Shown here piece after piece: positions 16,267 through 35,510 of a stretch of DNA of 64,000 nt. The notes below the pieces were generated by a model. That model saw nothing but the letters and a program-made list of their open reading frames with translations. It had not been told where the DNA came from and did no database searches. This DNA is from an uncultured Paracoccaceae bacterium (GTDB lineage Bacteria; Pseudomonadota; Alphaproteobacteria; Rhodobacterales; Rhodobacteraceae), in assembly GCA_947499715.1 (NCBI GenBank), contig CANMPL010000004.1, forward strand, positions 1 to 64,000. Reading direction: 5' to 3'. Within the stretch, counting starts at the first letter, position 1. The number at the start of each line of letters is the position of its first letter. The translations under genes and the position numbers were made by a program.

Positions 16267-17283
16267 CTAAGTTTGCATGTCTTTCAAGCGGTTCAGGACA
16301 TTCAGCCCCTGCATGTCCAGAAAATGCAGGATGTCGATAAAGATCCAGTTCTCGGCCAGCTTGTCGCCATCGCGTCGGTAGATATCGACCACACGCATAT
16401 CCGCCGTCGGCCCCTTGGGCAGACCCATATAGCCGCCCAAAGGGGTGACACTCAGGTTGGCCCAGCCAAAAAAGCCGCCGTAGTTGCCTTCGGCCAGTTT
16501 GGCCTGATGGCCGTGGAAAGTGCGATTGGTCAGATGCTTTCGGAATGGTTGCTGGTGCTGCACGATATAGCGGTCAATCGTGTAGGTTGCGCCAATCCCA
16601 TCTGGCCCCCACCACAGCATATCGTCGTGCCAGCAACGCGAAAGTTCCTCGTGTGGCGTCTCGCGCGGTGTTGATCCTGGCCCGGTGTTGGAATTGGCCG
16701 CAATGTCACCAATCATACGGTTGATCAGATCAAGCGTCGCGGTTCCCACTGCGGGGTCCTGCGCGTCGTACAGCAACCCGTCATGGGTCAGGGGGCCGGG
16801 CTGCACCAAATGCTGCCCTGTCTGCGGCGGCAGCGGGTTTAGCCCGGCCTGATGCATCAGATGCACCAGATCGCAAAACAATGCCGTTTCAACGATCTTG
16901 CCGTCTTGCACGCAGTTAAACTCTGCATAGCGCAGCATGGTGATCTTGCCGGTCGGCGGGATGCCCAGAAATGGCGCGTCAAACAGCCCCATCAGATGTC
17001 CCATCGACACGACCCATGTGCCGGGCCGCCCGCGCGACACATTATCGCCTGCAAAGAAGATATCGGGCCTGCGCTGCACCGATGTCATCGCTGTCAGAAA
17101 AGGCGCCCAAAAGGATGCAGCCACATCGGCAGCGCCATATTGCTCATAAAACGGGTGCATTCCGCGCCAATGCCAATCGGCACTTGTCCGCTCTGCCAAA
17201 ATCCCTGCCACGGTCTCAGGGGTGGCCGCGGCCAGCGCATCATAATGCGCCAGCACAACCGCCTTCGCGTCTTGGAATGTCAT
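16267..17283 (-). CDS. Double-domain SnoaL/NTF2-like protein A
   Basis: The 338-residue protein consists of two SnoaL/NTF2-like alpha+beta-cone domains in tandem (about 1-150 and 180-338). Domain 1 ends with RYAEFNCVQDGKIVETALFC and DLVHLMHQAGLNPLPP; domain 2 carries WWGPDGIGA (224-232) and ends ENWIFIDILHFLDMQGL (311-327). The same two motifs occur in proteins C and D of this island. SnoaL-type proteins catalyse cyclisation, isomerisation, hydration or hydrolysis in polyketide and related chemistry; no specific activity is known for this subgroup. It is the last gene of the leftward operon, two bases after the permease stop, so it is tied to the ABC importer. Confidence 0.78.
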   Translation of the reverse strand: MTFQDAKAVVLAHYDALAAATPETVAGILAERTSADWHWRGMHPFYEQYGAADVAASFWAPFLTAMTSVQRRPDIFFAGDNVSRGRPGTWVVSMGHLMGLFDAPFLGIPPTGKITMLRYAEFNCVQDGKIVETALFCDLVHLMHQAGLNPLPPQTGQHLVQPGPLTHDGLLYDAQDPAVGTATLDLINRMIGDIAANSNTGPGSTPRETPHEELSRCWHDDMLWWGPDGIGATYTIDRYIVQHQQPFRKHLTNRTFHGHQAKLAEGNYGGFFGWANLSVTPLGGYMGLPKGPTADMRVVDIYRRDGDKLAENWIFIDILHFLDMQGLNVLNRLKDMQT

Positions 17284-17285
17284 CG

Positions 17286-18167
17286 TTAGCCTTTAACCGC
17301 ACCTGCTGTCAGACCAGAGACGATCTGTCGCTGGAAGAAAACAATCATCACAAAGAGCGGTGCTGTCACAGACACAACCGCCGCCACCGCAAACATCACG
17401 TTGCCCTTGGTTTGTGTGGTGCCAAGGAACGATGCAAGCTTGGGCACCATGGTCTGGTTTTCCTTGCTCAGCAACATCGCCGAGACGGCAAAGTCGTTAT
17501 AGGCCAGCAGAAAACTAAAGAGGCCGGTGGTAATCACGCCGGGCCACATGACCGGGATGATAACATGGCGGAAGGCCTGAAAACGGGTGCAGCCATCGAC
17601 CATCGCACTTTCGTCCAGATCTTGCGGGATGTTCTTGAAGAACGAATGCAGCATCCACAACGTGAAGGGCTGGTTGATCGCCACAAGCACAATAATCGTT
17701 GTCGATAGGTGCCCCCAAAGGTTCCACTCAAAGAACGGCAGCAAATAGCCCGACACCAGTGTGATGGGCGGCATCGCGCGAAAGATCAGCGCAAAGAACA
17801 AGAACCAGAACGCATAGCGAAAACCAGACCGCGCAAGGGCATATCCCCCCAAGGTGCCGCAGGTCAGCGAAATCGTTACCACAAAGATGCAGACGATGAT
17901 CGTGTTCAGGGCCGCGCGCCAGAATTCCTCTTGCACCCATGCGCCGTAATAACCGTCGCCGGTAAAGGACCCGCCGGTTTCCACAATCGTCAGCGTCCCC
18001 CGGAGGGAGTTCATCCAATCTGCCTTGGAAAAGAAGTCGCCCTCGACCTTGAGCGATCCCCAAAGGGTCCACAGGAATGGGAAGGCGGCCATGATCAGCC
18101 AGATCACCAGAAAGACGGTGGCCAGTAACAGGACTGAAGGCGGGCGGGCGGTGGCTTTGCTGCTCAT
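17286..18167 (-). CDS. CUT1-type sugar ABC transporter permease (MalG-like)
   Basis: The 293-residue inner-membrane protein has six predicted helices. The EAA-loop that contacts the ATPase appears as DLDESAMVDGCTRFQAFRHV (about 191-210), preceded by LWMLHSFFKNIPQ. This is typical of the second permease (MalG/UgpE type) of importers for oligosaccharides, polyols and glycerol-3-phosphate-like compounds. Its stop lies two bases before the SnoaL A start, and it begins three bases after the first permease, so SBP-permease-permease-SnoaL A is one transcript. The matching ATPase is on the divergent transcript. Confidence 0.92.
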   Translation of the reverse strand: MSSKATARPPSVLLLATVFLVIWLIMAAFPFLWTLWGSLKVEGDFFSKADWMNSLRGTLTIVETGGSFTGDGYYGAWVQEEFWRAALNTIIVCIFVVTISLTCGTLGGYALARSGFRYAFWFLFFALIFRAMPPITLVSGYLLPFFEWNLWGHLSTTIIVLVAINQPFTLWMLHSFFKNIPQDLDESAMVDGCTRFQAFRHVIIPVMWPGVITTGLFSFLLAYNDFAVSAMLLSKENQTMVPKLASFLGTTQTKGNVMFAVAAVVSVTAPLFVMIVFFQRQIVSGLTAGAVKG

Positions 18168-18170
18168 GGC

Positions 18171-19196
18171 TCAGGTCCTCGGTGAAAAGTCGCGGTAGGT
18201 GCGTACCAGCACCGGTGAAAGCAAGATAGCGACGCCGATGATCGTCAGCACGGATGTGGCCGCCGCCGATGACAGCAATCGTGTCTCGCCCTGAAGGTCG
18301 TTGAAGATCGCGTAAGACAGCGAAAAGGCATGCGCCTGTGCCTGAAAGCTGACGATTGGTTCAAAGACCCGGAAGTTATCCATCAGCTGGATCAACGCCA
18401 CAAAGGTCGTCAATGGCATCAGGTGCGGGATGACGACATAGCGGATCCGCTCGACCCGGCTGGCGCCGTCGATCACGGCGGCTTCCATCGTGTCCTGATT
18501 CACTGTTTGCAGCCCGGCATAAAAGACCACAAAGGCAAACGGGGCAGAGGACCACACGCCATAGACCATCAGCATGATCCACATCAGTGTCGTATCCGCT
18601 TTGACCGATAGTGAGGGATCATCCGCTAGCCATTGCAGCGCCGTGCCCAGCACGCCGCGGGCGTCCACCATCCAGAACAGGATCAAGGCGCCAACCAAGG
18701 GGGTCACGATCATCGGCAGAAGTGAGAAAAAGATCGTCGGCCCTTTCAGCGCCTTGGCGACTGAATTGACGGCGATGGCAATCAGGAAACCGGCGATAAT
18801 CGTCAGCGGCGTGACGATGAACGTATAGGCCAGGGTGAAGGCCAGCGCGTTGTAGAACGGCAGGTTCATCAAGGCGCGGCCAAAATCGGGTAGCCCATCC
18901 GCATTCACCCAAGCGGTGCCAATTTCGCCTACGGCAAGGTGGTTCCGGTCGGTGTAGATCTCGCTCCCCACGAAGCGGCCCAGCGGTTCTTCATCCTGCA
19001 GCGCTTGCGTGGCTTCTTGGTCAACGGCGGTGGATTCGGTGCAGCCAAACGGGCCGCAGCTTTCAACCGTCACCACGACCTGTTCGTGGGCGGCATACAT
19101 CGATTGCGTGACAACCGATACGATGGGCAGTGCGATGAAAAGCAGCATCAAAACCGCAGATGGTAATACAAACCAAAAGAACGCGCTGTGCTTCAT
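18171..19196 (-). CDS. CUT1-type sugar ABC transporter permease (MalF-like)
   Basis: The 341-residue protein is the first permease of the importer. A first membrane helix (about 7-30) is followed by a roughly 80-residue periplasmic insertion (about 31-110) that contains a close cysteine pair (ESCGPFGCTES). Five more helices follow, and an EAA loop reads TMEAAVIDGASRVERIRYVV (about 235-254). The insertion is longer than in many MalF/UgpA proteins and might take part in substrate delivery; that is inference. A stable hairpin separates it from the upstream binding-protein gene. Confidence 0.92.
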   Translation of the reverse strand: MKHSAFFWFVLPSAVLMLLFIALPIVSVVTQSMYAAHEQVVVTVESCGPFGCTESTAVDQEATQALQDEEPLGRFVGSEIYTDRNHLAVGEIGTAWVNADGLPDFGRALMNLPFYNALAFTLAYTFIVTPLTIIAGFLIAIAVNSVAKALKGPTIFFSLLPMIVTPLVGALILFWMVDARGVLGTALQWLADDPSLSVKADTTLMWIMLMVYGVWSSAPFAFVVFYAGLQTVNQDTMEAAVIDGASRVERIRYVVIPHLMPLTTFVALIQLMDNFRVFEPIVSFQAQAHAFSLSYAIFNDLQGETRLLSSAAATSVLTIIGVAILLSPVLVRTYRDFSPRT

Positions 19197-19231
19197 GACA
19201 ATGCCCCAAAATGAATAAGATGGAAGGTCGA

Positions 19232-19252
19232 AAGGGGGCGAACCGCCCCCTT
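19232..19252 (-). promoter_or_regulatory. Stable hairpin between binding-protein and permease genes
   Basis: A perfect 9-bp GC-rich stem (19232-19240 with 19244-19252) with an AAC loop lies in the 69-base gap of the leftward operon. There is no T-run after it on the minus strand, so it is more likely an mRNA-stabilising or partial-termination element. Such hairpins downstream of binding-protein genes usually raise binding protein over permease levels, as in the E. coli malE-malF gap. Confidence 0.6.
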
Positions 19253-19265
19253 CCAGATTGTCGTC

Positions 19266-20513
19266 TTACTGCAGGTAGCCCTGCTCTTTTGCCGCTGTGG
19301 TATAGGCGGCTTCAACGTCGGCCAATGCCTGCTCTGCGCTTTCGTTACCCTGCAGGTAGTCGGCAAGGTTATCGCCCAGGGCAGAGTGCAGCAGACCCAT
19401 GAAGGGCAGCATTGGATAGGGGTTCGCACCTGCGGCCACAGTGGCCAGAACGCCTTCGTTCACCGGTGCGGGCTCATAGCCGTCCATCAGCCAAACCGCC
19501 TGAGACATGGTCTCATCGTTCAGCAGGGCAGGCGACGTGGCGTGCGCCAGTGCCTGGAAGGTTGCAGCCGCTTCAGCGTCGCTGATGTTTTTGGCCACGG
19601 TCCAGCCGTCCCACCACAGAGTGGATGCGGCAACACCGCTGTCGCCCACTGTCAGCGGACCACCGGCAACCGTGTTGGAATAGACGGCCATCTCAGAGCC
19701 TTCGTCATCCATCAGCACGCCAGTCCGGCTGCCCCACATGTTCATCAGGGCCACGTTGCCTGCTTCCCATTCAGCGCTTGTCGCGTTGCTGTCGTGTGTC
19801 AGGTAATCGGGGTTCATATATTCGGTCAGCGCCTTCATCGTTTCCAGCGCAAGAATGCCCTGCTCGTTGTTGATGCTGACATTCGCTGTGCCCGGCTCAA
19901 AGAATGCGCCGCCTGCGCCAAGGTACATGTTCACGAATTCCTCGGCGAGGTTCCAACCAGCCGCATAAGCGCCGCCGACCGGGTTTTCCATGATGCCTTC
20001 AGCGCGGATTTTCTCAGCAGCCGCAAGCACTTCTTCGTAAGATGTTGGCACGTCCATGCCGATCTGTTCCAGCACGTCCTTGCGATACACAAGGTGCTGT
20101 GCGTTCGCCATAAAGGCCACGGCCATCACCTTGCCGTCGATGGTGATCAGCTGACGGGCAGGGATGTCCTGACCATACATCGCGACCAGATCGTCAAGCG
20201 GGCGGATCACGTCTTCGTTGATCAGCGCCACGATGGAAGAGTTGGCAACAATCGCGCTGGTGTATTCAGCGGGGTTGCCCTGCATACCGGGCAGGTTGAT
20301 CGTCTGGTGGTCAGCCGTCAGGTTGCTTTCGGCGTCAATGCCGTTGGCGCAGGACAGTGCGGCAGCAGCGACCGACTGGATCGCAGGGAATTCGTTACCC
20401 ACGATGTTGATACGACCTTCTGTGACGTCACATCCGTGACCCGCGGCCAGTGCGCTTGTCCCGCTCAGGACGGCCATGGCCGTTCCCAGTAGGGCTGTTC
20501 TCATCATTTTCAT
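19266..20513 (-). CDS. Periplasmic solute-binding protein of a CUT1 sugar/polyol importer
   Basis: The 415-residue protein is a family-1 extracellular solute-binding protein. It has a Sec signal peptide (MKMMRTALLGTAMAVLSGTS, cut near ALAA). The two-lobe pattern includes YRKDVLEQIGMDVPTSYEEV (about 144-163) and the Trp-rich STLWWDGWTVAKNISDAEAA segment of lobe 2. The ATG at 20513 is behind GGGAG; an in-frame start 45 bases upstream adds a non-signal leader. The ligand cannot be named; the family binds sugars, oligosaccharides, polyols and glycerophospho-compounds. It is the first gene of the leftward operon, about 105 bases from a LacI-type operator. Confidence 0.92.
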   Translation of the reverse strand: MKMMRTALLGTAMAVLSGTSALAAGHGCDVTEGRINIVGNEFPAIQSVAAAALSCANGIDAESNLTADHQTINLPGMQGNPAEYTSAIVANSSIVALINEDVIRPLDDLVAMYGQDIPARQLITIDGKVMAVAFMANAQHLVYRKDVLEQIGMDVPTSYEEVLAAAEKIRAEGIMENPVGGAYAAGWNLAEEFVNMYLGAGGAFFEPGTANVSINNEQGILALETMKALTEYMNPDYLTHDSNATSAEWEAGNVALMNMWGSRTGVLMDDEGSEMAVYSNTVAGGPLTVGDSGVAASTLWWDGWTVAKNISDAEAAATFQALAHATSPALLNDETMSQAVWLMDGYEPAPVNEGVLATVAAGANPYPMLPFMGLLHSALGDNLADYLQGNESAEQALADVEAAYTTAAKEQGYLQ

Positions 20514-20617
20514 TTCAAAACTCCCGGTTCTCTTTAGGCCCGCATTTTGCGGCTTCATTCAGTGTGACCCTGATGGTCACAGGTCATGCTGACGCATCAC
20601 GCGAATCGCCGCAACAC

Positions 20618-20633: not shown

Positions 20634-20738
20634 GTAAACTGCGATCACCCTAGGTCACGCAAGAAAAATTCGACCGTGATGGGAAATTTTTAACCATGTT
20701 ACTTTAGGGCTTGATCGGTTTTGCGACTCGGTCCACAG

Positions 20739-20756
20739 TTTGCAAACGTATGCAAA
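20739..20756. promoter_or_regulatory. LacI-type operator O2 (near the ATPase gene)
   Basis: TTTGCAAACGTATGCAAA is an 18-bp palindrome with one mismatched pair and a central ACGT. It ends 14 bases before the ATPase ATG, so a bound repressor would block the rightward transcript. Its centre lies about 122 bases from that of the first operator, a distance that could allow DNA looping between the two divergent promoters. Confidence 0.7.
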
Positions 20757-20769: not shown

Positions 20770-21813
20770 ATGGCGCAAATTGAACTGCGCAATGTGTCAA
20801 AGCGCTGGGGGTCATTCGTTGGCGTCCATGATTTCAACCTGACCATTGCTGATCAAGAATTTCTTGTCCTTCTGGGCCCGTCGGGCTGTGGAAAGACGAC
20901 CACGATGCGAATGATCGCCGGGCTGGAAGATGCCAGTGGCGGCGACATTCTGGTGGATGGCAAACGGATCAATGATCTTGATCCCAAGGACCGCGATGTC
21001 GCGATGGTGTTCCAGTCCTACGCGCTTTATCCCAATATGAACGTCTATGAAAACATCCGCTTCCCGCTGAAAGTGCGCAAAGTAAGTGGCGATCATGACG
21101 CTATGGTCAAACGCGCCTCTGCGATGGTCGAGCTGGACGAGTTTTTGCACCGCAAGCCTGCCGAACTGTCTGGCGGTCAGCGTCAGCGCGTGGCCCTGGC
21201 CCGTGCGGTTGTGCGTGAACCCAACGTGTTCCTGATGGATGAACCGCTCTCGAACCTTGACGCCAAACTGCGCGTCTCGACCCGTGCCCAGATCAAGAAC
21301 CTCAGCCACGAGCTGAAGACCACCACGATCTACGTGACCCATGACCAGATCGAAGCGATGACACTCGCCGACCGCGTTGTGGTCATGAGCAAAGGCAAGG
21401 TCCAGCAGGTGGGATCCCCCACGGACATCTATGACAACCCGGCCAACACCTTTGTTGCGGGCTTCATCGGATCTCCGGCGATGAACCTGATGGATGGCAC
21501 GCTGGAAAACGGCACCTTTACCGCGGACAAGATCAAGATCACCGGTCTGGACAGCAGCCATAACGGTCCTGTCACGCTTGGCTTCCGGGCAGAGGATGCC
21601 TCTGTCGCGGATGGCGAAGGCGATGCCAATTCAAAGGTCTATTCGCTGGAACTTCTCGGCGAGGCGACGATGGTGACGATGCGCGCCGCAGGCACGATCA
21701 TTTCGGTGAAATCGAACAAGGACTACCGGGTCGAAATCGGTGATCCCGTCAGCGCCTCTATCCCTGCCAATATCTGCCACCTGTTCGACCGCGAAAGCGG
21801 GGAGCGACTTTGA
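20770..21813 (+). CDS. ABC transporter ATP-binding protein (UgpC/MalK type)
   Basis: The 347-residue ATPase energises the importer. It shows Walker A GPSGCGKTT (about 37-45), signature LSGGQRQRVALAR (about 134-146), Walker B VFLMDEPLSNLD (about 153-164), the H-loop VTHDQIEAMTLADR and a C-terminal TOBE/MalK-like regulatory region from about residue 240. The start is ATG at 20770 with GAGGG upstream, giving MAQIELRNVSKRWG; the longer frame from 20740 would begin inside operator O2. It heads the rightward operon, opposite the binding protein and permeases, and is followed three bases later by the GMC oxidoreductase. Confidence 0.94.
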   Translation: MAQIELRNVSKRWGSFVGVHDFNLTIADQEFLVLLGPSGCGKTTTMRMIAGLEDASGGDILVDGKRINDLDPKDRDVAMVFQSYALYPNMNVYENIRFPLKVRKVSGDHDAMVKRASAMVELDEFLHRKPAELSGGQRQRVALARAVVREPNVFLMDEPLSNLDAKLRVSTRAQIKNLSHELKTTTIYVTHDQIEAMTLADRVVVMSKGKVQQVGSPTDIYDNPANTFVAGFIGSPAMNLMDGTLENGTFTADKIKITGLDSSHNGPVTLGFRAEDASVADGEGDANSKVYSLELLGEATMVTMRAAGTIISVKSNKDYRVEIGDPVSASIPANICHLFDRESGERL

Positions 21814-21816
21814 TCT

Positions 21817-23322
21817 ATGGCATCCACCGCCACATATGACGTGATCGTGGTGGGTGCCGGTTCGGCAGGCTGCGCTGTGTCCGCCGGTCTCGCCCGCGCG
21901 GGCGTGGGCCGCATTGCTGTGGTTGAAGCCGGGCCAACAGACGCACATCCGCTGGTAAAAATGCCCTTTGGACTGGTCTGGCTGATGGGCTCCCGGCGGG
22001 ACTGGCGATTGCAGTCGGCACCGCAAAAGGCGCTGGGCGGACGGCAGATCAAGATCCCGCGTGGCCGGATGTTGGGCGGGTCAGGGTCAATCAACTCAAT
22101 GGTCTGGTTTCGTGGGCAGGCGTCCGACTTTGATGGCTGGAACGTGCCCGGTTGGGGGTGGTCCGACGTGGCCCCCGCCTTTGACGCGGTCGAGGCGCAG
22201 ATGACACCCGCGCCACTGGAAACGCCGCATCCCCTCACGCAGGCGCTGGGCCGATTGTTCGGTGCCAACAGCGCCGGGCGACCCGATCCCGCGCGCGAAA
22301 CCGCAGGTGTTTGCGATTTCAATCTCAGAAATGGGCGGCGCTGGTCGCCCGCTGATGCCTTCCTGCGCCCCGCGCAAGGGATTGAGGTTTTGACCGGCCA
22401 CCAGGTGCACCGCCTTGATCTTGCAGATAAAACCGCCAATGCGGTGGAATTCACGGATGGCACGCGGATCACCGCCACCAAGGGGATCGTGCTCTCTGCC
22501 GGGGCCATCGGGTCGCCCGAGATCCTGTTGCGCTCTGGCGTGGGTCCGGCGGCGGATCTGGCGGCGGCCAATGTGCCCGTCGTGCTGGACGCGCCACAGG
22601 TAGGCGCAAACCTGCATGACCATCCCGGCATTGGATTGCACTTTGCCGGGCCGGGTTCCGGCCATGGCCTGACTTTCAATCAAGCTTTCAAATGGGCGCT
22701 GGCCCCGTTCAACTACCTTTTCCGCCGCAAAGGCGTCTTTGCCTCACCCACGGTCGAGGGGGCTGCCTTCTTTAACGCCCGCGACGATGGCGGCGCACCC
22801 GATGTGCAAAGCCACTTCATCCCGTTTTTCATGAACTGGAAGGGCGGGCGCTGGGCCTATGGCGCGGGCTATTTTGCCGACGTCTGCCTTTGCCGGCCTA
22901 AATCACGCGGCAGCTTGCGGATCACACCGCAAGGCACCGCGATTGACCTTGGCATCCTCAACGATTCTTCCGACCTTGATACCATGGTCGCGGGCCTCAA
23001 ACGTCTGCGCCAGATCCTGCGCGACGCCCCCTTTGGCGACCATGCCGCCCCAGAAGCCTTCCCCGCTGGGGCCGCCCAGACAGACGCCGACATCCGCCAG
23101 TATATCCTTGATCGCTGCGGCACCGCCTATCATCCGGTCGGCACGTTGCGCATGGGGCAGGGCGATGCGCCCGTGTCGCCCGACCTTGCCGTCAAGGGCA
23201 TCAAGAACCTTTGGGTCGCGGATGCTTCTGTCATGCCATCCATCACATCCGCCAACACAAATGCCCCGTCGATCATGATCGGCCACCGCGCGGGCGACAT
23301 CATCGCAAAGGCCATCCCATGA
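21817..23322 (+). CDS. GMC-family FAD oxidoreductase
   Basis: The 501-residue flavoenzyme has the FAD dinucleotide motif VVGAGSAGCAVSAGLA (about 11-26), the GMC signature region GRMLGGSGSINSMVWFRG (about 84-101), and a catalytic His/Asn pair: H439 in YHPVGTLRMG and N482 in SANTNAPS. GMC enzymes oxidise alcohol groups of sugars, polyols, choline and aryl alcohols. BetA-type choline dehydrogenase is the closest household name, but no betaine genes (betB, betI) are present, so choline is not asserted. The SnoaL B start overlaps its stop (ATGA). Confidence 0.88.
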   Translation: MASTATYDVIVVGAGSAGCAVSAGLARAGVGRIAVVEAGPTDAHPLVKMPFGLVWLMGSRRDWRLQSAPQKALGGRQIKIPRGRMLGGSGSINSMVWFRGQASDFDGWNVPGWGWSDVAPAFDAVEAQMTPAPLETPHPLTQALGRLFGANSAGRPDPARETAGVCDFNLRNGRRWSPADAFLRPAQGIEVLTGHQVHRLDLADKTANAVEFTDGTRITATKGIVLSAGAIGSPEILLRSGVGPAADLAAANVPVVLDAPQVGANLHDHPGIGLHFAGPGSGHGLTFNQAFKWALAPFNYLFRRKGVFASPTVEGAAFFNARDDGGAPDVQSHFIPFFMNWKGGRWAYGAGYFADVCLCRPKSRGSLRITPQGTAIDLGILNDSSDLDTMVAGLKRLRQILRDAPFGDHAAPEAFPAGAAQTDADIRQYILDRCGTAYHPVGTLRMGQGDAPVSPDLAVKGIKNLWVADASVMPSITSANTNAPSIMIGHRAGDIIAKAIP

Positions 23323-23843
23323 AGGGTTCTCGTCCCGAACAAGCCGTCCTGTCCCGTGACACCGACATGTCCAAAACCGACGCAACCCGCGCTGTCATCG
23401 AAGGCATGGTTGACGGCCTGAACGACCACCGCATCGGTGATATCGGCGAATTCTTCGCCCAAACCTTTCGCTGGATCGGCAACACCGGCTGTGGCACCAA
23501 AAATGGCCTGCAAGAATTTCAGGCCAATTGGCAAAAGCCCTTTCAGGCTGCGTTCCACGACAAGGTCTGCGTGGATGAGGCGCGCCTTTACATGGGCGAA
23601 TGGGCCGCTGCCTTTGGTCGACAAGAGGCGACACATGGCGGCGACTTCATGGGTGTGCCCGCATCCGGCAAACGGATCGAGATCCGCTACATGGATTTCT
23701 GGAAAGTCGAAGATGGCCGCATCACCGACAACTACGTCATGGTCGATTTCCCCCATGTGCTCGCCCAGCTTGGCGTTGATGTGTTCAACGGCGAAGGCTG
23801 GGAAAAATACGACCGTGGTGAAGCGGAGCCACCCACCCCATGA
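23319..23843 (+). CDS. Single-domain SnoaL/NTF2-like protein B
   Basis: The 174-residue protein has one SnoaL-like domain. It shares the C-terminal family motif DFWKVEDGRITDNYVMVDFP followed by HVLAQLGVDVF (about 127-156), in which DNY replaces the ENW of proteins A, C and D. H80, H106 and several acidic residues in the cone are candidates for catalysis but not proven. The ATG at 23319 overlaps the GMC stop; a later methionine (residue 17, MSKTDATRAV) is an alternative start. It overlaps protein C by four bases. It may work on the ketone or aldehyde made by the GMC enzyme, which is inference from position. Confidence 0.72.
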   Translation: MKGSRPEQAVLSRDTDMSKTDATRAVIEGMVDGLNDHRIGDIGEFFAQTFRWIGNTGCGTKNGLQEFQANWQKPFQAAFHDKVCVDEARLYMGEWAAAFGRQEATHGGDFMGVPASGKRIEIRYMDFWKVEDGRITDNYVMVDFPHVLAQLGVDVFNGEGWEKYDRGEAEPPTP

Positions 23844-27977: not shown

Positions 27978-29011
27978 TGCCGACGGACAAGATCACATCG
28001 CTGGAAGTTGCCAAGCGGGCGGGCGTCAGCCAGTCCGCCGTCAGCCGTGTGTTCACGCCGGGGGCCTCCGCCTCTGCCAAGACTATCGAAAAGGTGAAAC
28101 GGGCCGCCGCCGAATTGGGCTATCGCCCCAACCGCATGGCCAGCGCGATGATCACCGGCAAAAGCCGCATCATCGGCCTGATCGTCGCCTATCTGGACAA
28201 TATGTTCTACCCCCTCGCGCTGGAACGGCTGTCAAACGCGCTTCAGGCGCAGGGCTACCACATCCTCGTGTTTACCGCCTCCAACGCGCAGGAACGCGTG
28301 GACGAGATTGTGGCAGAACTGATGGACTATCAGGTCGACGGCATCATCACGGCCTCTGTCTCCATGTCTGGCGATCTGACCGCGAAATGTGCCGCCGCAG
28401 GCATTCCCGTTGTGATGTTCAACCGCGGCCAGGACGGCGTGGATCTGTCGGCCGTGACCTCTGCCAATGTGGCGGGCGGGCGCAAGATCGCGGATTTCCT
28501 CGTGCAGGCCGGACATAACCGCATCGCCCATATCTCTGGCTGGCAAGGGTCCTCAACCGGGCGCGACCGCCAGCGTGGCTTTGCCGACCGGCTGGCAGAG
28601 CTGGGCCATCCCGCCCCACAGATCATCGACGGCATGTATGACCGTGACACGGCCTCTGCTGCCGCGCGCACTTTGATGGCGCAGCCCACGCCGCCCGATG
28701 CGATCTTTGTCGGCAACGACCACATGGCCTTTGCCGTGATCGACACGCTGCGCGGCGAACTTGGCCTGCGGGTGCCGCAAGACGTGGCGATTGTGGGCTA
28801 TGACGATGTGCCCACGGCGGCTTGGGCGGCCTATGATCTGACCACCGTGCGCCAACCCGTCAACCAGATGGTGCAGGCCACAGTTGACCTTCTGATCGCC
28901 AAAATCGCCGATCCGATTGCCCCGGTGCGCCGGGTGGAAATCGACGGCCCGCTTATCCCTCGGGGCTCTGCCCCTCAACATCAAAGGACACCCCATGAAG
29001 GGCTTCTCTAA
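27977..29011 (+). CDS. LacI-family transcriptional regulator of the island
   Basis: The 344-residue regulator has an N-terminal LacI helix-turn-helix (ITSLEVAKRAGVSQSAVSRV, residues 6-25) with the hinge region LGYRPNRMASAM, followed by a periplasmic-binding-protein-like effector domain (about 60-330). It probably represses both the importer and this operon by binding the two TTGCA-type palindromes at 20618-20633 and 20739-20756, responding to a sugar-like inducer. Being inside the operon implies autoregulation. The ATG at 27977 overlaps the SDR stop. The 3' end overlaps the start of SnoaL E by 17 bases. Confidence 0.92.
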   Translation: MPTDKITSLEVAKRAGVSQSAVSRVFTPGASASAKTIEKVKRAAAELGYRPNRMASAMITGKSRIIGLIVAYLDNMFYPLALERLSNALQAQGYHILVFTASNAQERVDEIVAELMDYQVDGIITASVSMSGDLTAKCAAAGIPVVMFNRGQDGVDLSAVTSANVAGGRKIADFLVQAGHNRIAHISGWQGSSTGRDRQRGFADRLAELGHPAPQIIDGMYDRDTASAAARTLMAQPTPPDAIFVGNDHMAFAVIDTLRGELGLRVPQDVAIVGYDDVPTAAWAAYDLTTVRQPVNQMVQATVDLLIAKIADPIAPVRRVEIDGPLIPRGSAPQHQRTPHEGLL

Positions 29012-29975
29012 TCGGTGGAAAGACTTCCCCGACTACATCCTCGGCATCACCAAAGAGATTTGGGAAGACCGGGGCGTCGGCACGCTGAACCACTACTACA
29101 GCGATGATATCCCCGTCCGCTCTCCCATGGGTATTGCCGTGGGCAATCAGGCCACCATCGCGGCGACCATGGCGACAATCAACGAATTCCCCGACCGCCA
29201 GTTGTTCGGCGAGGATGTGATCTGGTCCGAACATGAAACCGGGCTTTTGTCGTCGCACCGCCTGAATACAGTGGCGACGCATAGCCGCGACGGTGCTTTT
29301 GGCCCGGCCACAGGCAAGAAATGGAACATCCGCGTCATCGCCGATTGCGCCGCCAAGGAAGACACGATCTTTGATGAATGGCTGATCCGGGATTACGGCG
29401 GCATCGTCCGACAGATCGGCAAGGACCCGCGTGAATTCACGGCTCAGTTGATCGCGGACGAGGGCGGCCCCGAAAAAGCCGCCATGCCCTTCCTGCCTGA
29501 AAACGACATCGCCGGGGACTACAAAGGTACGGGCAACGACAACCAATGGGGCCAGCGCTATGCCGATACGCTGACCCGGATCATGAACCATGATTTCAAC
29601 CATGTGCTGGAAAGCTATGACCGCGCGGTCATCGGCGAATACGCAGGCGCGCAAATGCTGACAAGCGCGCAGGAATGCGTAAAGTTCTGGGTTGGCCTGC
29701 GATCATCCTTTCCCTCGGCCACCTTCAAGATCCACCACCAGATCGGCATGGACGCCGACATGCTCTCGCCCCGCGCCGCGATCCGCTGGTCGCTTGATGG
29801 CACCCACGACGGCTGGGGCAGCTTTGGCCGCCCCACAGGCGCGCGGGTGCACGTCATGGGCATGAGCCACGCCGAATTTGGCCCCTACGGCCCGGACGGC
29901 ATCGGCCTGCGCCGCGAATTCGCGCTTTACGATGAAATCGCGATCTGGAAACAGATCCTGATGGCACAAGGCTAA
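28995..29975 (+). CDS. Double-domain SnoaL/NTF2-like protein E (divergent)
   Basis: The 326-residue protein again has two SnoaL-like halves (about 10-140 and 178-326) but lacks the WYGP and ENW motifs of proteins A, C and D, so it is a diverged branch. The second half ends FGPYGPDGIGLRREFALYDE, and the N-terminal half contains WEDRGVGTLNHYYSDDIPVR, a common opening in SnoaL proteins. The ATG lies 17 bases inside the LacI gene and has its own AAAGGA site. A frame open from 28917 has no ribosome binding site and no homologous N-terminus. Its stop overlaps the next gene (TAATG). Confidence 0.74.
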   Translation: MKGFSNRWKDFPDYILGITKEIWEDRGVGTLNHYYSDDIPVRSPMGIAVGNQATIAATMATINEFPDRQLFGEDVIWSEHETGLLSSHRLNTVATHSRDGAFGPATGKKWNIRVIADCAAKEDTIFDEWLIRDYGGIVRQIGKDPREFTAQLIADEGGPEKAAMPFLPENDIAGDYKGTGNDNQWGQRYADTLTRIMNHDFNHVLESYDRAVIGEYAGAQMLTSAQECVKFWVGLRSSFPSATFKIHHQIGMDADMLSPRAAIRWSLDGTHDGWGSFGRPTGARVHVMGMSHAEFGPYGPDGIGLRREFALYDEIAIWKQILMAQG

Positions 29976-30496
29976 TGCGTCCCGCCCTCATCTCTCTCGC
30001 CTTTTTGGCGACGTCGCTGCAAGCGCAGGACCTGATCCAATACGACATGGAACAGCTGCCAATCGCCATGATGGAGCTCGAGGGCGGGGACTTTTTCGCA
30101 ACGCTTTATGAAGAGGCAGAGCCGTTCCAATCCATGATTGTCTTCAATTGTACGAACTGTGCCGCGTTCACCGAAGTCATCGCCGGCGTTACCGCCGACT
30201 TGGATGACATTGCGCCAAAGCTGATGGCCGACCCCAACGCTTTCGTCGCGCAATTCGCAGGGGAATGCCAACAAACGGCCCCCGATTGCATCGCCGGCAC
30301 CGTGACAGAGGCGGGACTGCCCGGATATTCCTATGCAGGCCGGTTTGATGGCACCGTGGTGATCGAACACAACTACTTTGCAAATGGACTGGTCTACCAC
30401 ATCTACAGCGCCGCCCCGGTCGCACAAATCGCGCAAGACAACGCCGTCTATATGCTTGAAATCTTAACACCCTTAGTCACAGGACAAATCCAATGA
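29975..30496 (+). CDS. Small exported protein with four cysteines, unknown function
   Basis: The 173-residue protein has a Sec signal peptide (MRPALISLAFLATSLQAQ, cut near residue 16-18). The mature part has two cysteine pairs, FNCTNCAAF and GECQQTAPDC, which could form disulfides in the periplasm. I do not recognise a family. Starting on the stop of SnoaL E and ending over the cupin start (ATGA), it is locked into the operon, so a periplasmic role in handling the same substrate is plausible but inferred. Confidence 0.6.
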   Translation: MRPALISLAFLATSLQAQDLIQYDMEQLPIAMMELEGGDFFATLYEEAEPFQSMIVFNCTNCAAFTEVIAGVTADLDDIAPKLMADPNAFVAQFAGECQQTAPDCIAGTVTEAGLPGYSYAGRFDGTVVIEHNYFANGLVYHIYSAAPVAQIAQDNAVYMLEILTPLVTGQIQ

Positions 30497-31458
30497 CACC
30501 CGCTGAAATGGAATCCCGCATCGTCCGCTATGGCGATCTGATGCCCTGCAAAACGGCCTTTATCGACGCCCACACACCAGGGTCGAACCAAAAGGAAAAC
30601 TTTACCATCATCGGTGGCGGCGTATCGGAAAGCCCCGATCAACACGTCCACATCGGCATCCCGCATGGGTTCAACATCGGGGCCGCCGGGCAACCGCCGC
30701 ATTGCCGCAACTCCTTGCATGATCACCACACGGCAGAGGCGTTCTTTGTCCTCAAAGGCCGCTGGCGTTTCTTCTGGGGCCGCTGGGGCACAGCAGGAGA
30801 GGTCGTGCTGGAAGAGGGTGACATCTTTAACATCCCCACCGGCATTTTCCGTGGCTTTGAAAACATCGGGACCGACTATGGGATGATCATGGCGATCCTT
30901 GGTGGCGATGATGCCGGTGGCGGTGTCATGTGGGCGCCGCAGGTGATCGAAGACGCCGCAGACCACGGGCTGATCCTTGGTGACAACGGCAAACTCTATG
31001 ACACCAAAAAGGGCGAGACGCTGACCAATGGCGTCAAACCGATGCCGCTGATGACCGACGAAGAGCTCGCCAAGCGGCCAGAGCCCACAACCCGCGACGT
31101 CCTGCCCAACCATGTGGCCCGTTACTGGGACATGATGGCGATGGCCGACAAAGATCCCGTGACCGTGATCGGAGAGGCAGGCCTTTTGCGCGACAAGCCC
31201 GGTTTTGAAGTTGGCTTTATGAACCGCAACTCTGCCAGCGACGCGATGCACCAGCATGATTACCCCTCCGTCCTGATGCCGATGCGCGGCCATTGGCGTG
31301 TGAACTGGGATGGCGGATCGGCGACGCTGGCCCCCGGCGATACCATGTCGGTGCCGGAAAACCTGATGCACAATGCCGTGCCATCAATGACCGGCGAAGC
31401 CTCGCTTTACCACGTCGTTGCCACCGGCGATCCGGCGGGTGCCACGTGGAAAGGTTAA
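30493..31458 (+). CDS. Bicupin domain protein
   Basis: The 321-residue protein has two cupin barrels. The first carries a metal-ligand pattern HDHHTAEAFFVLKGRW (about 76-91) and EGDIFNIPTGIFRGFEN; the second has DAMHQHDYPSVLMPMRG and APGDTMSVPENLMHN but lacks the glutamate after HxH, so only the first site looks fully metal-competent. Bicupins include gentisate-type dioxygenases, sugar-acid isomerases and decarboxylases; none is specifically indicated. Codon-overlap with the preceding gene (ATGA) makes it the last gene of the tightly packed operon before a 88-base gap. Confidence 0.78.
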   Translation: MTPAEMESRIVRYGDLMPCKTAFIDAHTPGSNQKENFTIIGGGVSESPDQHVHIGIPHGFNIGAAGQPPHCRNSLHDHHTAEAFFVLKGRWRFFWGRWGTAGEVVLEEGDIFNIPTGIFRGFENIGTDYGMIMAILGGDDAGGGVMWAPQVIEDAADHGLILGDNGKLYDTKKGETLTNGVKPMPLMTDEELAKRPEPTTRDVLPNHVARYWDMMAMADKDPVTVIGEAGLLRDKPGFEVGFMNRNSASDAMHQHDYPSVLMPMRGHWRVNWDGGSATLAPGDTMSVPENLMHNAVPSMTGEASLYHVVATGDPAGATWKG

Positions 31459-31479
31459 CCGACCTTCAGACTTCAATAC

Positions 31480-31523: not shown

Positions 31524-31546
31524 GCCCCTACGAAAAGGACCGTTCG

Positions 31547-32674
31547 ATGCCTAAAATTTTGACCAGCCACGTCGGATCATTGCCCCGCACCCAAGAGGTC
31601 GTGGATTTCATCTTTGCCCGTGAACACGGCAAGGACTACGACCAAGCCGCCTTTGACGCGGCGATGACGGCAGCCGTTGATGAAACCGTGCGAAAACAAA
31701 AGGTTGCAGGTGTCGATATCGTGTCGGATGGGGAGACGTCCAAGATTTCCTACGCCACCTACGTCAAAGACCGCTACACCGGTTTTGACGGCGACAGTCC
31801 GCGTAATGCACCTGCTGACCTCAAGGAATTTCCCAGCTTTCTCAAGCGCTTGGCGGACGACGGCGGCACCCCGCAATACGCAAGACCGATGTGCGTCGGC
31901 GAAGTGACCTCAAAAGGGCAGGGCGAGCTGGAAAAGGATATCGCCAACCTCAAGGGCGCGATGGCCAAACACGGGGTTGATCGCGGCTTTATGAACGCGG
32001 CCTCTCCCGGCGTTATCTCTTTGTTTTTGCAGAATGATTACTACAAGACGCGCGAAGCCTATCTGGCCGCTTTGGCCGATGCGATGAAGGCGGAATATGA
32101 AACCATCGTGGCCTCCGGCCTAGATCTGCAACTTGATTGCCCCGACCTCGCACTGTCGCGTCACATGTTGTTTAACGATTTGTCCGATGATGAGTTCCTG
32201 AAAATCGCCGCAAGCCATGTTGAGGCGTTAAATCATGCACTTAGCGACGTTCCGGCAGACAAAGTCCGCGTTCACATCTGCTGGGGCAACTACGAAGGCC
32301 CACACGTCTGCGACATTCCGATGTCCAAGATGTTCGATACCCTGATGTCGACCAAATCGCGCTACGTGCTGTTTGAAACCTCCAACCCCCGCCACGGCCA
32401 CGAATGGGCCACCTTCCGCGATCGCAAGGCCGATATTCCAGACGATAAGGTGCTAGTGCCGGGCGTTGTGGACACGACGACAAACTTTGTCGAACACCCA
32501 GAACTTGTCGCGCAACGTATTGAAAGATTTAAAGATATTGTCGGATCGGACCGCGTGATCGCTGGTTCTGACTGTGGCTTTGGCACCTTTGCAGGCTTTG
32601 GCGCGGTTGATCCCGAAATCGCCTATGCCAAGCTGGGCGCACTTTCTGACGGGGCCAAACTGGCAAGCGCATGA
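31547..32674 (+). CDS. MetE C-terminal-type (cobalamin-independent methyltransferase) family protein
   Basis: The 375-residue protein corresponds to the catalytic C-terminal half of cobalamin-independent methionine synthase. The zinc ligand set is intact: H243 and C245 (VHICWGN), E277 (LFETSN) and C343 (GSDCGFGT). The opening TSHVGSLPR is the family's N-terminal signature. The full-length MetE N-terminal domain is missing, so it is not ordinary methionine synthase. Relatives transfer or remove alkyl groups from thiols, including core-MetE and coenzyme M-type enzymes. The ATG at 31547 is behind AAAAGGA; an open frame from 31418 runs through the repeats and was rejected. It overlaps the hydrolase gene by four bases. 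Confidence 0.82.
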   Translation: MPKILTSHVGSLPRTQEVVDFIFAREHGKDYDQAAFDAAMTAAVDETVRKQKVAGVDIVSDGETSKISYATYVKDRYTGFDGDSPRNAPADLKEFPSFLKRLADDGGTPQYARPMCVGEVTSKGQGELEKDIANLKGAMAKHGVDRGFMNAASPGVISLFLQNDYYKTREAYLAALADAMKAEYETIVASGLDLQLDCPDLALSRHMLFNDLSDDEFLKIAASHVEALNHALSDVPADKVRVHICWGNYEGPHVCDIPMSKMFDTLMSTKSRYVLFETSNPRHGHEWATFRDRKADIPDDKVLVPGVVDTTTNFVEHPELVAQRIERFKDIVGSDRVIAGSDCGFGTFAGFGAVDPEIAYAKLGALSDGAKLASA

Positions 32675-33357
32675 CACCGCTGATCCTGCTGCCCGGAATG
32701 ATGTGTGACGCGCGGCTTTTCGCCCCGCAAATCAAGGCGTTACCGGACGCGCAGGTCATGGCGATTGACGCCTATGACACGATAGAGGCTTTGGCAGGGG
32801 ATATCCTTGCCAAAGCACCGGCGCGTTTTGCGCTGGCGGGGCTGTCGATGGGCGGCATCGTCGCGATGGAGGTGTTGCGCCAAGCCCCTGATCGTGTTGA
32901 CAGAATCGCGCTCTTGGACACGAACCCCAAGGCCGAACATCCCACCATTGCCGCCAGTCGTGAACCGCAAATTGCCAAGGTTGCAGTTGGCGATCTGATC
33001 CCCGTGATGCGGGATGAGATGAAGCCGAATTACCTGACCGACGGCCCCCGTCGCGGCGCGATTTTGGATCTTTGCATGGACATGGCCGCCGACCTTGGGC
33101 CAGAGGTCTTTATCCGTCAATCCCGCGCCCTGCAAACCCGCCCCGACCAGCAAGAGACGCTGAAAAACTGCACCGTCCCGGCGCTCGTTCTGTGCGGGCG
33201 CGATGATGCGCTTTGCCCTGTCCATCGCCACACGCTGATGCATGAACTCATGCCGCACAGCACCCTGCACATCGTTGAAAACGCAGGGCATTTGCCCACT
33301 CTTGAACAACCTGACGAAACAACCGCAGCGCTGGTGCGCTGGTTAGAGGCCCCATGA
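32671..33357 (+). CDS. Alpha/beta-fold hydrolase
   Basis: The 228-residue protein has a compact alpha/beta-hydrolase fold: oxyanion region LLPGMMCDARLF (about 5-16), nucleophile elbow GLSMGG (about 52-57), catalytic aspartate in LCGRDDALCP and histidine in ENAGHLPTLEQP. Such enzymes cleave esters, thioesters, lactones or C-C bonds. It overlaps both neighbours (ATGA at each end), which makes the MetE-like, hydrolase and RraA-like genes one unit. The substrate is unknown. Confidence 0.88.
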   Translation: MTPLILLPGMMCDARLFAPQIKALPDAQVMAIDAYDTIEALAGDILAKAPARFALAGLSMGGIVAMEVLRQAPDRVDRIALLDTNPKAEHPTIAASREPQIAKVAVGDLIPVMRDEMKPNYLTDGPRRGAILDLCMDMAADLGPEVFIRQSRALQTRPDQQETLKNCTVPALVLCGRDDALCPVHRHTLMHELMPHSTLHIVENAGHLPTLEQPDETTAALVRWLEAP

Positions 33358-34046
33358 ATGATGCACTTCTGACGCTCTTGCGCAGTGTCGATACCCCCAC
33401 CGTTTGCAATGCCATCGAAGTGGCCCAAGGCAAGCGCGGCTTTGATGCCTTCACCCGCGGCACGATGCTGATCAACGACCCAAAGGGCGTTGCCGTTGGT
33501 TATGCGGTGACAGCCAAAATCGCCGCCGTGACCCCACCATCAGAGCCGCCAGATGTGATCCGCGCCCGCCGCATGGCCTATTACAAAGCCATGGCAGAGG
33601 CCCCAAAACCCAGCATTTGCGTGATCGAGGATGAAGATTACCCCAATGCCATCGGGGCCTATTGGGGTGAGGTGAACACGACCATTCACAAGGGCTTTGG
33701 CATGTCCGGCACGCTGACCAATGGCGTGATGCGCGACCTTGGCGACATGGCCCCGGAATACCCGGTGATCGCGGGATCCATCGGCCCCAGCCACGGTTTT
33801 GTGCATGTGACCGATCTGGATTGCAGCGTTGACGTGTTTGGCCTGACAGTCCGACCCGGTGACCTTGTCCATGCTGACCGTCACGGCGCAGTCGTTGTGC
33901 CGGTGGACGTGATCGATGCACTGGCCGGAGCGATCAAGAAAATGCAGGATACAGAACACCTTGTGCTTGGTCCCGCGCGCGCGGACGGCTTTGATTTCGC
34001 GGCCTTTGAGGCCGCCTGGACGGCATTTGAAAAGGCGCGGACTTAA
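33354..34046 (+). CDS. RraA-like aldolase/decarboxylase family protein
   Basis: The 230-residue protein is of the RraA/HMG-aldolase fold. The catalytic Arg-Asp pair is R127-D128 in NGVMRDLGD, and the C-terminal VRPGDLVHADRHGAVVVP matches the family. Enzymes of this family cleave 4-hydroxy-4-methyl-2-oxoglutarate or decarboxylate oxaloacetate; E. coli RraA itself inhibits RNase E and lacks the aldolase residues. Here the residues are present, so a carbon-carbon lyase acting on a keto-acid is more likely. It overlaps the hydrolase gene (ATGA). Confidence 0.85.
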   Translation: MNDALLTLLRSVDTPTVCNAIEVAQGKRGFDAFTRGTMLINDPKGVAVGYAVTAKIAAVTPPSEPPDVIRARRMAYYKAMAEAPKPSICVIEDEDYPNAIGAYWGEVNTTIHKGFGMSGTLTNGVMRDLGDMAPEYPVIAGSIGPSHGFVHVTDLDCSVDVFGLTVRPGDLVHADRHGAVVVPVDVIDALAGAIKKMQDTEHLVLGPARADGFDFAAFEAAWTAFEKART

Positions 34047-34100
34047 TGCGTGATTGCCCTGAGCGCTGAGCGGTATATCTAGCGCGCAAAGGAGTTCGCC

Positions 34101-35510
34101 ATGCTCAACCCCGCTGATGATGCCTTTGCCGTGCAATTGCGGCAGGTGCTGCCTGCCGCCGCCTTCAAGGATGATACCGCGCCCTATCTGACAGAGCCGC
34201 GCGGACGTTGGCAGGGACGCGGGATCGTTGTAGCGCCGGGGAATGTCGCAGAGGTTGCGGCCGTCGTCTCTGCCTGCCACTTGGCGCGCGTTGGGGTGGT
34301 GCCTTATAGCGGTGGAACGGGTCTAGTCGGTGGGCAGATCATGCCAGATGGGCCTGCCCCTGTGATCCTGTCGCTCGAGCGGATGAACCAGATCAGGGCC
34401 GTCTATCCTCTTGAAAACACGATGATCGTGGATGCCGGTGTGATCCTGGCAGACGTGCAGAAGGCGGCGCAGGATGTGGACCGGATGTTTCCACTCTCGC
34501 TTGCCTCGGAAGGGTCCGCGCGCATTGGCGGGTTGTTGTCGACCAACGCGGGCGGTGTGAATGTGCTGCGCTATGGCAACGCCCGCGCCCAGTGTCTGGG
34601 GCTGGAAGTTGTGCGGCCGGACGGGTCGATCTGGCATGGGCTGACGCGGTTGCGCAAAGACAACACAGGCTATGATTTGCGGAACCTGATGATCGGCGCT
34701 GAAGGTACCTTGGGTGTGATCACCGGGGCAGCGTTGCGGTTGGTGCCGCAGCCTGCATCGGTGGGGGCCGCGATTCTGGCAGTTCCGTCGCCTGCGGCCG
34801 CGCTGGAGCTTTTGGCATTGGCGCAGGCACAGCTTGGTGATGCCGTATCGGCCTTTGAACTGATCCACCGGCAGGGCATGGATTTTCTGGCAGAGGTGGG
34901 ACCAGCGGTGAAAGCACCCTTTGCAGATCAGCCGGACTGGATCGTGCTGGTTGATCTTGGCATGCCACAAGGCGGCGTGCCCGAGGCGGCCCTGGCGCGA
35001 TTGTTTGAAACCGCCGCCGACATGGGGTTGGTGCAGGATGGGGTCATCGCGCAATCCTTGGCGGACAGACAGGCGTTTTGGCACATCCGGGAAAGCATTC
35101 CCGAGGCAAACCGCCGGGTTGGTTCCGTCAGCAGCCATGATATTTCGCTGCCCCTTGGCGCGGTGGCGGAATTCATCGCACAAGGGGCCGGTGAGATTGC
35201 GAAGATTGGGACGTTCCGGATCAATTGCTTTGGGCATTTGGGGGATGGCAACCTGCATTATAACGTCTTTCCGGTGCCGGGGCGGAGTAGAGAAGATCAC
35301 CTGTCAGATCGCACGGCGGTCAAAACAGCGGTGCACGATCTGACCCATGCTATGGGTGGATCTGTGAGTGCAGAGCATGGCATTGGTCGGCTGAAAGTCG
35401 AGGATCTGATCAGCTATGGTGATCCGGCAAAGCTTGCGATGATGCGCGCGATCAAATCGGCCCTGGACCCGCATTATATCATGAACCCCGGGGCCGTCTT
35501 GCCGGTTTGA
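34101..35510 (+). CDS. FAD-linked D-2-hydroxyacid dehydrogenase (GlcD-like)
   Basis: The 469-residue flavoprotein has a PCMH-type FAD-binding domain with VVPYSGGTGLVGGQ (about 63-76) and GSARIGGLLSTNAGGVN (about 138-154), and a C-terminal GlcD-like domain with a metal site in NCFGHLGDGNLHYNVF and SAEHGIGRLK. It ends in MNPGAVLP, as D-lactate and D-2-hydroxyglutarate dehydrogenases do. It oxidises a D-2-hydroxyacid to the keto-acid. The 54-base gap before it holds an AAGGAG site. It is the last gene of the island and may feed the RraA-like enzyme with a 2-keto acid, which is inference. Confidence 0.9.
   Translation: MLNPADDAFAVQLRQVLPAAAFKDDTAPYLTEPRGRWQGRGIVVAPGNVAEVAAVVSACHLARVGVVPYSGGTGLVGGQIMPDGPAPVILSLERMNQIRAVYPLENTMIVDAGVILADVQKAAQDVDRMFPLSLASEGSARIGGLLSTNAGGVNVLRYGNARAQCLGLEVVRPDGSIWHGLTRLRKDNTGYDLRNLMIGAEGTLGVITGAALRLVPQPASVGAAILAVPSPAAALELLALAQAQLGDAVSAFELIHRQGMDFLAEVGPAVKAPFADQPDWIVLVDLGMPQGGVPEAALARLFETAADMGLVQDGVIAQSLADRQAFWHIRESIPEANRRVGSVSSHDISLPLGAVAEFIAQGAGEIAKIGTFRINCFGHLGDGNLHYNVFPVPGRSREDHLSDRTAVKTAVHDLTHAMGGSVSAEHGIGRLKVEDLISYGDPAKLAMMRAIKSALDPHYIMNPGAVLPV

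Follow-up and report, generated by a model that had tools for sequence, protein, structure and literature searches.

A putative LacI-controlled catabolic gene cluster of Rhodobacterales combining SnoaL-like proteins, a HisD-fold dehydrogenase and a core-MetE protein

What compound might a bacterium take up and degrade with a gene row in which five SnoaL-like proteins are interspersed among an ATP-binding cassette (ABC) importer, a LacI-family regulator and a varied set of enzymes? The question is raised by positions 16267-35510 of the window, i.e., the whole stretch of 64,000 nucleotides that was analyzed (positions 1-64000 of contig C4 in genome G000, an uncultured Paracoccaceae assembly of 4.02 Mb in 44 contigs). 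Comparison of sequences leads us to propose, with a probability of roughly 0.6, that the cluster found there is a LacI-controlled catabolic regulon for a small polyhydroxylated and probably O-, N- or S-methylated compound. A catabolic role is proposed because the cluster has an importer, a LacI site, dehydrogenases, a hydrolase and an aldolase, and an importer-linked catabolic island is supported by genes that co-occur, cluster together and share an operator-like site. The methylated substrate is the weaker half of the proposal and concerns the main cluster, not the wider module described below. An earlier note on this DNA had suggested a stepwise catabolic route for a polyhydroxylated compound; co-occurrence, synteny and the shared site favor that suggestion, while its gene set has been narrowed to a smaller core and methylation has been added.

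Layout of the locus and its conserved core

The cluster comprises 19 genes, four on the minus strand (SnoaL_A, two permeases and the binding protein) and 15 on the plus strand, the latter in a row that spans from the UgpC-type ATPase to the GlcD-like enzyme. Together with two putative operators, they are:

16267..17283, minus: SnoaL_A (P0001), SnoaL-like, with 338 aa long enough for two domains, at the end of the minus-strand transporter operon; Pfam SnoaL 47.4 bits in a single stretch
17286..18167, minus: ABC permease, MalG-like half, CUT1 type; Pfam BPD_transp_1
18171..19196, minus: ABC permease, UgpA-like half; Pfam BPD_transp_1
19266..20558, minus: solute-binding protein SBP_bac_1; Pfam 56.6 bits
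20618..20633, no strand: putative LacI operator TTGCATACGCTTGCAA, palindrome in the divergent promoter
20740..20755, no strand: putative LacI operator TTGCAAACGTATGCAA, palindrome in the divergent promoter, directly before the ATPase start
20770..21813, plus: ABC ATPase, UgpC type; NCBIfam NF008653
21817..23322, plus: GMC oxidoreductase, accessory; Pfam GMC_oxred_N/C
23319..23843, plus: SnoaL_B (P0007), single-domain; Pfam SnoaL 57.7 bits, start chosen
23840..24856, plus: SnoaL_C (P0008), two-domain length; Pfam SnoaL 51.3 bits
24872..26203, plus: HisD-fold dehydrogenase (P0009) with GKFPM motif; Pfam Histidinol_dh 437.4 bits, motif table, tree
26200..27213, plus: SnoaL_D (P0010), two-domain; Pfam SnoaL 81.5 bits, two stretches
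27213..27977, plus: short-chain dehydrogenase/reductase (SDR), KduD/gluconate-5-dehydrogenase-like; Pfam
27977..29011, plus: LacI-family regulator (P0012), recognition helix QSAVSRVF; Pfam
28995..29975, plus: SnoaL_E (P0013), two-domain, cluster marker; Pfam SnoaL 46.7 bits
29975..30496, plus: small protein with signal-like N-terminus and CxxC; no Pfam or NCBIfam match, export read by eye
30493..31458, plus: bicupin of putative quercetinase-like fold, of which the first cupin alone has conserved metal-site residues (H76, H78, E82; R120)
31547..32674, plus: core-MetE-like methyltransferase; Pfam Meth_synt_2
32671..33357, plus: alpha/beta hydrolase, PcaD-like, below cut-off; Pfam, NCBIfam
33354..34046, plus: RraA-like aldolase or lyase; Pfam 69.1 bits
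34101..35510, plus: GlcD-like FAD-linked oxidase, accessory; Pfam, below NCBIfam cut-off

The families named in the earlier note are all present by Pfam match, except for the small protein at 29975, and the genes that flank 16267-35510 on both sides belong to other families. The count of five SnoaL-like proteins is confirmed, as P0001, P0007, P0008, P0010 and P0013 each exceed the curated Pfam cut-off for SnoaL (PF07366) of 28.4 bits. With ATG starts picked by eye, 10 of the 14 adjoining gene pairs on the plus strand overlap; the overlap measures 4 bases in six pairs, 1 base in three and 17 bases in one, and the remaining gaps are 3, 15, 54 and 88 bases. The ATPase start was set at ATG 20770; the listed open reading frame (ORF) begins at TTG 20740, within a putative operator. 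The importer is of the CUT1 (UgpC) type, its ATPase passing NF008653 with 440.1 bits (cut-off 432), and the binding protein has distant relatives in the PDB, the best being 6dtq (E 5.9e-10).

In a marker survey of 292 genomes of the order, SnoaL_E was found in 136, the bicupin in 133 and core-MetE in 123. SnoaL_E and the bicupin are found together in 132 of the 137 genomes having either (SnoaL_E is alone in four and the bicupin in one), more than expected by chance (Fisher p 1.8e-77, uncorrected for shared ancestry), which speaks against the possibility, raised in the earlier note, that the genes do not co-occur in other strains. In 112 of 129 genomes the two genes share a contig and are no more than 20 kb apart, and in the other 17 they are further apart or on different contigs; distances refer to 129 of the 132 shared genomes and to the best place in each. 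SnoaL_E is also present in 121 of the 123 genomes with core-MetE.

A scan of named genomes returned at least 583 relatives; the best 80 loci were kept, and the 66 that exceed 12 kb were tallied at identities of at least 40%. The loci are not independent, since the names L138 and L139 denote the same contig and some loci with G handles repeat named genomes, and their outer genes are undercounted because the flanks were 10 kb. Among the 66 loci, the bicupin recurs in 63, the SDR and HisD in 62 each, MetE and LacI in 60 each, the UgpA-like permease in 54, and the MalG-like permease, the binding protein and the ATPase in 53 each. These are followed by the hydrolase (46), SnoaL_B (42), RraA (37), SnoaL_A (23), GMC and SnoaL_C (8 each) and GlcD (7). 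At this threshold the counts for SnoaL_A, SnoaL_C and the ATPase fell from 31, 41 and 56, respectively, because weak cross-matches had been included earlier, while most others stayed the same or lost one.

The conserved core consists of the importer, HisD, the SDR, LacI, SnoaL_E, the bicupin and MetE, followed by the hydrolase and RraA, whereas GMC and GlcD are optional. Most of the families listed in the earlier note recur together, but the small protein is, like GMC and GlcD, outside this core, and of the HisD-like and GMC genes, whose co-occurrence in other Rhodobacterales it had proposed to check, HisD recurs widely and GMC does not. The small protein was not found at the compared loci by tblastn at 1e-12, and its sequence is not conserved; its slot is occupied at other loci by different small proteins, including a PNPOx-like one in L068. 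Hosts of the cluster include Yoonia, Leisingera, Paracoccus, Microvirga, and metagenome-assembled genomes labelled Methylobacterium, Rhizobiaceae and Granulosicoccaceae; Yoonia litorea and Leisingera aquaemixtae are culturable hosts. Across the phylum, a sample of 398 genomes that was enriched for relatives gave SnoaL_E matches in 23, seven of them outside the family.

The LacI regulator and a shared operator-like site

Palindromes of the TTGCAWNCGNWTGCAA type are found in the divergent promoters of the cluster, and the recognition helix of the LacI-family regulator begins with QSAVSRVF in 84 of 120 compared proteins. A site with at most two mismatches from GCATACGTATGC is found in 60 of 63 divergent regions (window plus compared loci), against a mean of 0.375 and a maximum of 3 regions in 200 mononucleotide shuffles, although the 63 regions are from related genomes and the shuffles preserved single-base content only. 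If only the window is considered, the loose pattern, with two mismatches allowed, occurs 4 times where 1.69 are expected, which is not beyond chance, and the weight of the operator evidence consequently comes from conservation of the sites across loci.

The genome of the window has exact matches at five places, two of them in the cluster. With one mismatch allowed in seven other genomes, nine of 14 sites are within 9 kb of SnoaL_E or the bicupin, while the reversed pattern gave none; no cluster gene is found within about 1.5 kb of the remaining five, one of which is near a weakly matching ABC ATPase. The core site is also present in 14 of 25 listed distant or split loci, including those of Pantoea, one of two Deinococcus, one of two Novosphingobium and Labrenzia.

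Elsewhere in the same genome, at G000:C2:196014-200367, are two identical TTGCAACCGGTTGCAA palindromes, the first of which adjoins another LacI gene (39% to P0012), and a sugar-type binding protein was recognized there by eye. This place is probably a separate regulon.

Predicted enzymes and the proposed route

P0009 passes the NCBIfam hisD model TIGR00069 with 420.6 bits (cut-off 243.8), a model that does not tell the clades of the HisD fold apart. Its Zn ligands and catalytic residues (Gln-x-x-His, Glu-His, Asp-Lys and a C-terminal His) are kept in the window and in the compared cluster rows; these residues and the clade motifs were taken from PMC11382572. The same paper gives GSAPL as the motif of biosynthetic histidinol dehydrogenase and GRY(A/S)H as that of HpsN, the enzyme of 2,3-dihydroxypropane-1-sulfonate (DHPS) catabolism, in which His126 recognizes the sulfonate. 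P0009 has GKFPM in place of either, as do 17 of the 17 readable orthologues of L034-L053 (the partial HisD of L042 was omitted), so that Met replaces the sulfonate-recognizing His. Identification of P0009 as HpsN was set aside for its GKFPM motif and for a separate copy in the same genome, L002 (G000:C3:454177-455427), a second HisD-fold gene that carries GRYSH and is likely the true HpsN for DHPS. Because the branches of the HisD tree are long, only the clade of the cluster sequences is used from it. A second HisD kind with GR[YF]P[LI], publicly annotated as hisD, is found at L057, L058, L059, L062, L063, L064, L065 and L066, at most of which an amidase or carbon-nitrogen hydrolase is nearby.

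Among the SnoaL-like proteins, P0010 and P0013 each contain two SnoaL stretches by Pfam, and a second domain is suggested for P0001 and P0008 by their length and motif. SnoaL_E keeps H88, D133 and D313 unchanged across 15 aligned rows, whereas the slot of SnoaL_D is often occupied at other loci by another SnoaL gene that is merely 32-38% like the SnoaLs of the window. Like SnoaL polyketide cyclases, to which they are related at the level of the Pfam family, these proteins have by motif an acidic residue of the W-x3-D kind, which plays a role in the cyclases; they differ in being tandem two-domain proteins of an importer-linked operon and in falling below the NCBIfam cut-off for the cyclases (methyl ester cyclase model NF033407, cut-off 200; best 33 bits, P0007). 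Since the 19 genes include no ordinary sugar-acid dehydratase by Pfam, we favor dehydration or isomerization as the way in which the SnoaL proteins may act.

The core-MetE protein retains H286, C288, E320 and C386 in 65 of 65 rows (numbered in the 418-aa reading from 31418), which we take by motif to be the His-Cys-Glu-Cys Zn site of MetE; the full-length model TIGR01371 is not reached (23.7 bits, cut-off 929.95). It resembles the core-MetE proteins described in PMC12478193, which reports homologues in marine bacteria, in having the catalytic MetE core and the invariant His-Cys-Glu-Cys site, but differs in standing in a catabolic gene row and in its tie to SnoaL_E. A methylated substrate is proposed because MetE tracks SnoaL_E, because a S-adenosylmethionine methyltransferase-like gene lies between the bicupin and MetE in 5 of 112 loci (L051, L109, L131, L133 and L135; Pfam on L109), and because DAO-type proteins are near the cluster in 7 of 112 loci, that of L079 being a DAO-GcvT fusion (Pfam on L079 only). 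Such proteins come immediately after the alpha/beta hydrolase at L079:5949-8387 and L094:15120-17525.

In the bicupin, H76, H78 and E82 are kept in the first cupin, and the second lacks the conserved His. In a comparison with quercetin dioxygenase YxaG (1y3t) and other bicupins, it has 17% identity and differs at the fourth ligand position and in the second cupin. The RraA-like protein has the Arg-Asp pair that plays a role in RraA-type aldolases (R127-D128) in 38 of 38 rows. PDB sequence searches with MetE, the bicupin, the binding protein, SnoaL_D and RraA gave only weak relatives.

Reasoning from the chemistry of the families, every step of a route can be proposed, together with a putative order. 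The compound would be imported by the CUT1-type ABC importer, and the core-MetE protein would pass a methyl group to a thiol, e.g., homocysteine. The SnoaL proteins may isomerize, dehydrate or hydrolyze ring or chain intermediates, replacing the missing sugar-acid dehydratase, and the HisD-clade enzyme may then oxidize CH2OH to COOH and the SDR CHOH to C=O. The bicupin, with one metal site, might oxidize or isomerize an enol-ketone, the alpha/beta hydrolase might open a lactone or diketone, and GlcD (Ldh_2 in one genus) might yield a 2-oxoacid. Cleavage of a hydroxy-oxoacid would fall to RraA, or at other loci to an aldolase of the HpaI type, and would probably release pyruvate along with one more fragment.

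Several observations weigh against the proposed regulon or its enzyme assignments. Quercetinase-type metal ligands are three His and one Glu, a set that the bicupin does not have, as its usual fourth ligand position is R120 in 35 of 35 rows, and its fold match to quercetinase is tied with matches to oxalate decarboxylase and seed storage proteins. GMC, MetE, RraA and GlcD do not reach the NCBIfam cut-offs (for GlcD, 226.1 bits against 567.9 in the glycolate oxidase model TIGR00387), and the SDR and the hydrolase are below the cut-offs of all 25 NCBIfam models shown for each. RraA recurs in just over half of the tallied loci, some of which are cut by the 10 kb flanks; the core site is not found in 11 of the 25 distant or split loci; and genome G229 (L195) has HisD, LacI and MetE without SnoaL_E or the bicupin. 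ORFs that look by eye like the enolase superfamily are near 3 of 112 loci, where a normal dehydratase may therefore exist. Since this bacterial family commonly has DAO-type proteins, chance may account for their adjacency. Demethylation cannot be a step that the entire module shares, because 15 of 136 SnoaL_E genomes lack MetE and only 1 of 16 wider loci checked (L173) has it.

The wider module and rival explanations

Relatives of the cluster are found in plasmid records of Deinococcus, Priestia, Pantoea, Ensifer, Novosphingobium, Roseibium and Vibrio, among others. The annotated neighborhoods compared (two of Deinococcus and those of Priestia, Pantoea, Ensifer, Novosphingobium, Labrenzia and Alloyangia) reuse parts of one set, which consists of an ester cyclase, one or two hisD, an SDR, an alpha/beta hydrolase, an aldolase, a cupin and LacI, often with an added amidase or carbon-nitrogen hydrolase. 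The aldolase is interchangeable, being of the RraA or the HpaI/GarL type, and so is the importer, which is ABC, MFS or, in Labrenzia, ABC plus tripartite ATP-independent periplasmic (TRAP), with TRAP and SSS in further loci. For Vibrio pelagius, the listed table shows only the importer together with four genes of the SnoaL type. The row of Ensifer NER9 continues with OtnK, a 3-oxo-tetronate kinase, and a class II aldolase, and in L181 the site is followed by the binding protein, permeases, ATPase, a SnoaL relative, the bicupin, RraA, an Ldh_2 dehydrogenase that would be the counterpart of GlcD in the window, and a PfkB kinase. These partners link the cluster to sugar-acid metabolism. An amidohydrolase is found at four cluster loci (L173:7922-8818, L053, L054 and L076), the L173 copy being fuconolactonase-like and below cut-off.

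The rival that survives best, though we consider it unlikely, is ordinary catabolism of a sugar or sugar acid that is not methylated, in which the SnoaLs act on sugar-acid intermediates and MetE merely supplies methionine, e.g., when cobalamin is scarce. The CUT1 importer, the KduD-like SDR, the GarL/HpaI-type alternatives and the OtnK, Ldh_2 and PfkB partners all suit it, as does the lack of MetE in most wider modules. Non-phosphorylative sugar-acid pathways end in HpaI/GarL-type aldolases and share with the cluster an SDR, a lactonase-like hydrolase and a 2-oxoacid aldolase; the HpaI/GarL-like aldolase and the fuconolactonase-like amidohydrolase of the wider modules, both below curated cut-offs, add to the likeness. 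They differ in that the cluster has several SnoaLs where a sugar-acid dehydratase would be expected. PMC12478193 calls it plausible that core-MetE is produced only under cobalamin limitation, which also favors this rival. However, the position of MetE within the gene row and its near-constant company with SnoaL_E would be unexpected for a housekeeping methionine synthase.

Catabolism of mycosporines or other C7 cyclitols is a more doubtful reading still. It gives each core enzyme a job: HisD would oxidize the ring CH2OH, MetE remove an O-methyl group, the bicupin cleave an enediol ring to 4-carboxy-4-hydroxy-2-oxoadipate, and an RraA/HpcH aldolase split this into pyruvate and oxaloacetate, while the SnoaLs would detach amino substituents and the amidases found elsewhere act on vinylogous or side-chain amides. 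A direct link to mycosporines is absent, however, and RraA scores 30.5 bits where the model for the 4-carboxy-4-hydroxy-2-oxoadipate aldolase LigK/PcmE (TIGR02798) has a cut-off of 304.5; the tie of the bicupin with non-dioxygenases and the PfkB, Ldh_2 and OtnK partners, which suit sugar acids better, also argue against it. No catabolic pathway for mycosporines was found in the literature searched, in the parts of the sources that were available.

Biosynthesis of a polyketide-like product with the SnoaLs as cyclases is very improbable. SnoaL is named after polyketide cyclases, and in the public records compared many cluster genes are annotated as ester cyclase or hisD, but Pfam detects neither a polyketide synthase nor a ligase or an exporter in the 19 genes, which instead encode an importer with its binding protein, LacI, a hydrolase and an aldolase.

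The DHPS pathway HpsN/HpsO/HpsP of Roseobacters, as described in PMC11131964 and PMC11382572, resembles the cluster in having a HisD-fold four-electron alcohol dehydrogenase that adjoins an SDR, a transporter and a regulator, with Zn and catalytic residues in common. The cluster differs in the GKFPM motif of its HisD and in its additional SnoaL, MetE, bicupin and RraA. The transporters differ as well, being CUT1 ABC here and TRAP there. Although DHPS dehydrogenases are the nearest solved relatives of P0009 (8v35, E 3.6e-112) and DHPS is used by Roseobacters (PMC11131964), a DHPS route with this enzyme as HpsN can be given almost no weight because of the GKFPM motif, and no sulfolyase family is found by Pfam among the 19 genes.

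The proposed regulon for a polyhydroxylated, probably methylated compound is thus of a known kind, the importer-linked catabolic operon, and its novelty lies in the set of enzymes, in a third clade of HisD and in SnoaL proteins of tandem build. In agreement with the earlier note, no characterized pathway with this set, and no report treating SnoaL and histidinol dehydrogenase together, was found in the literature searched, which excluded most subscription journals; a search by term in PMC10130141 gave no lead. The cluster probably serves a common compound, because nearly half of the sampled genomes of the order (136 of 292) carry SnoaL_E and related modules are found in Bacillota and Deinococcota. 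Together with the operator, the GKFPM motif eases annotation of the cluster. If the proposal is correct, SnoaL proteins would have a catabolic role, the HisD fold would have a third specificity besides histidinol and sulfonates, and core-MetE would be placed in a demethylation route.

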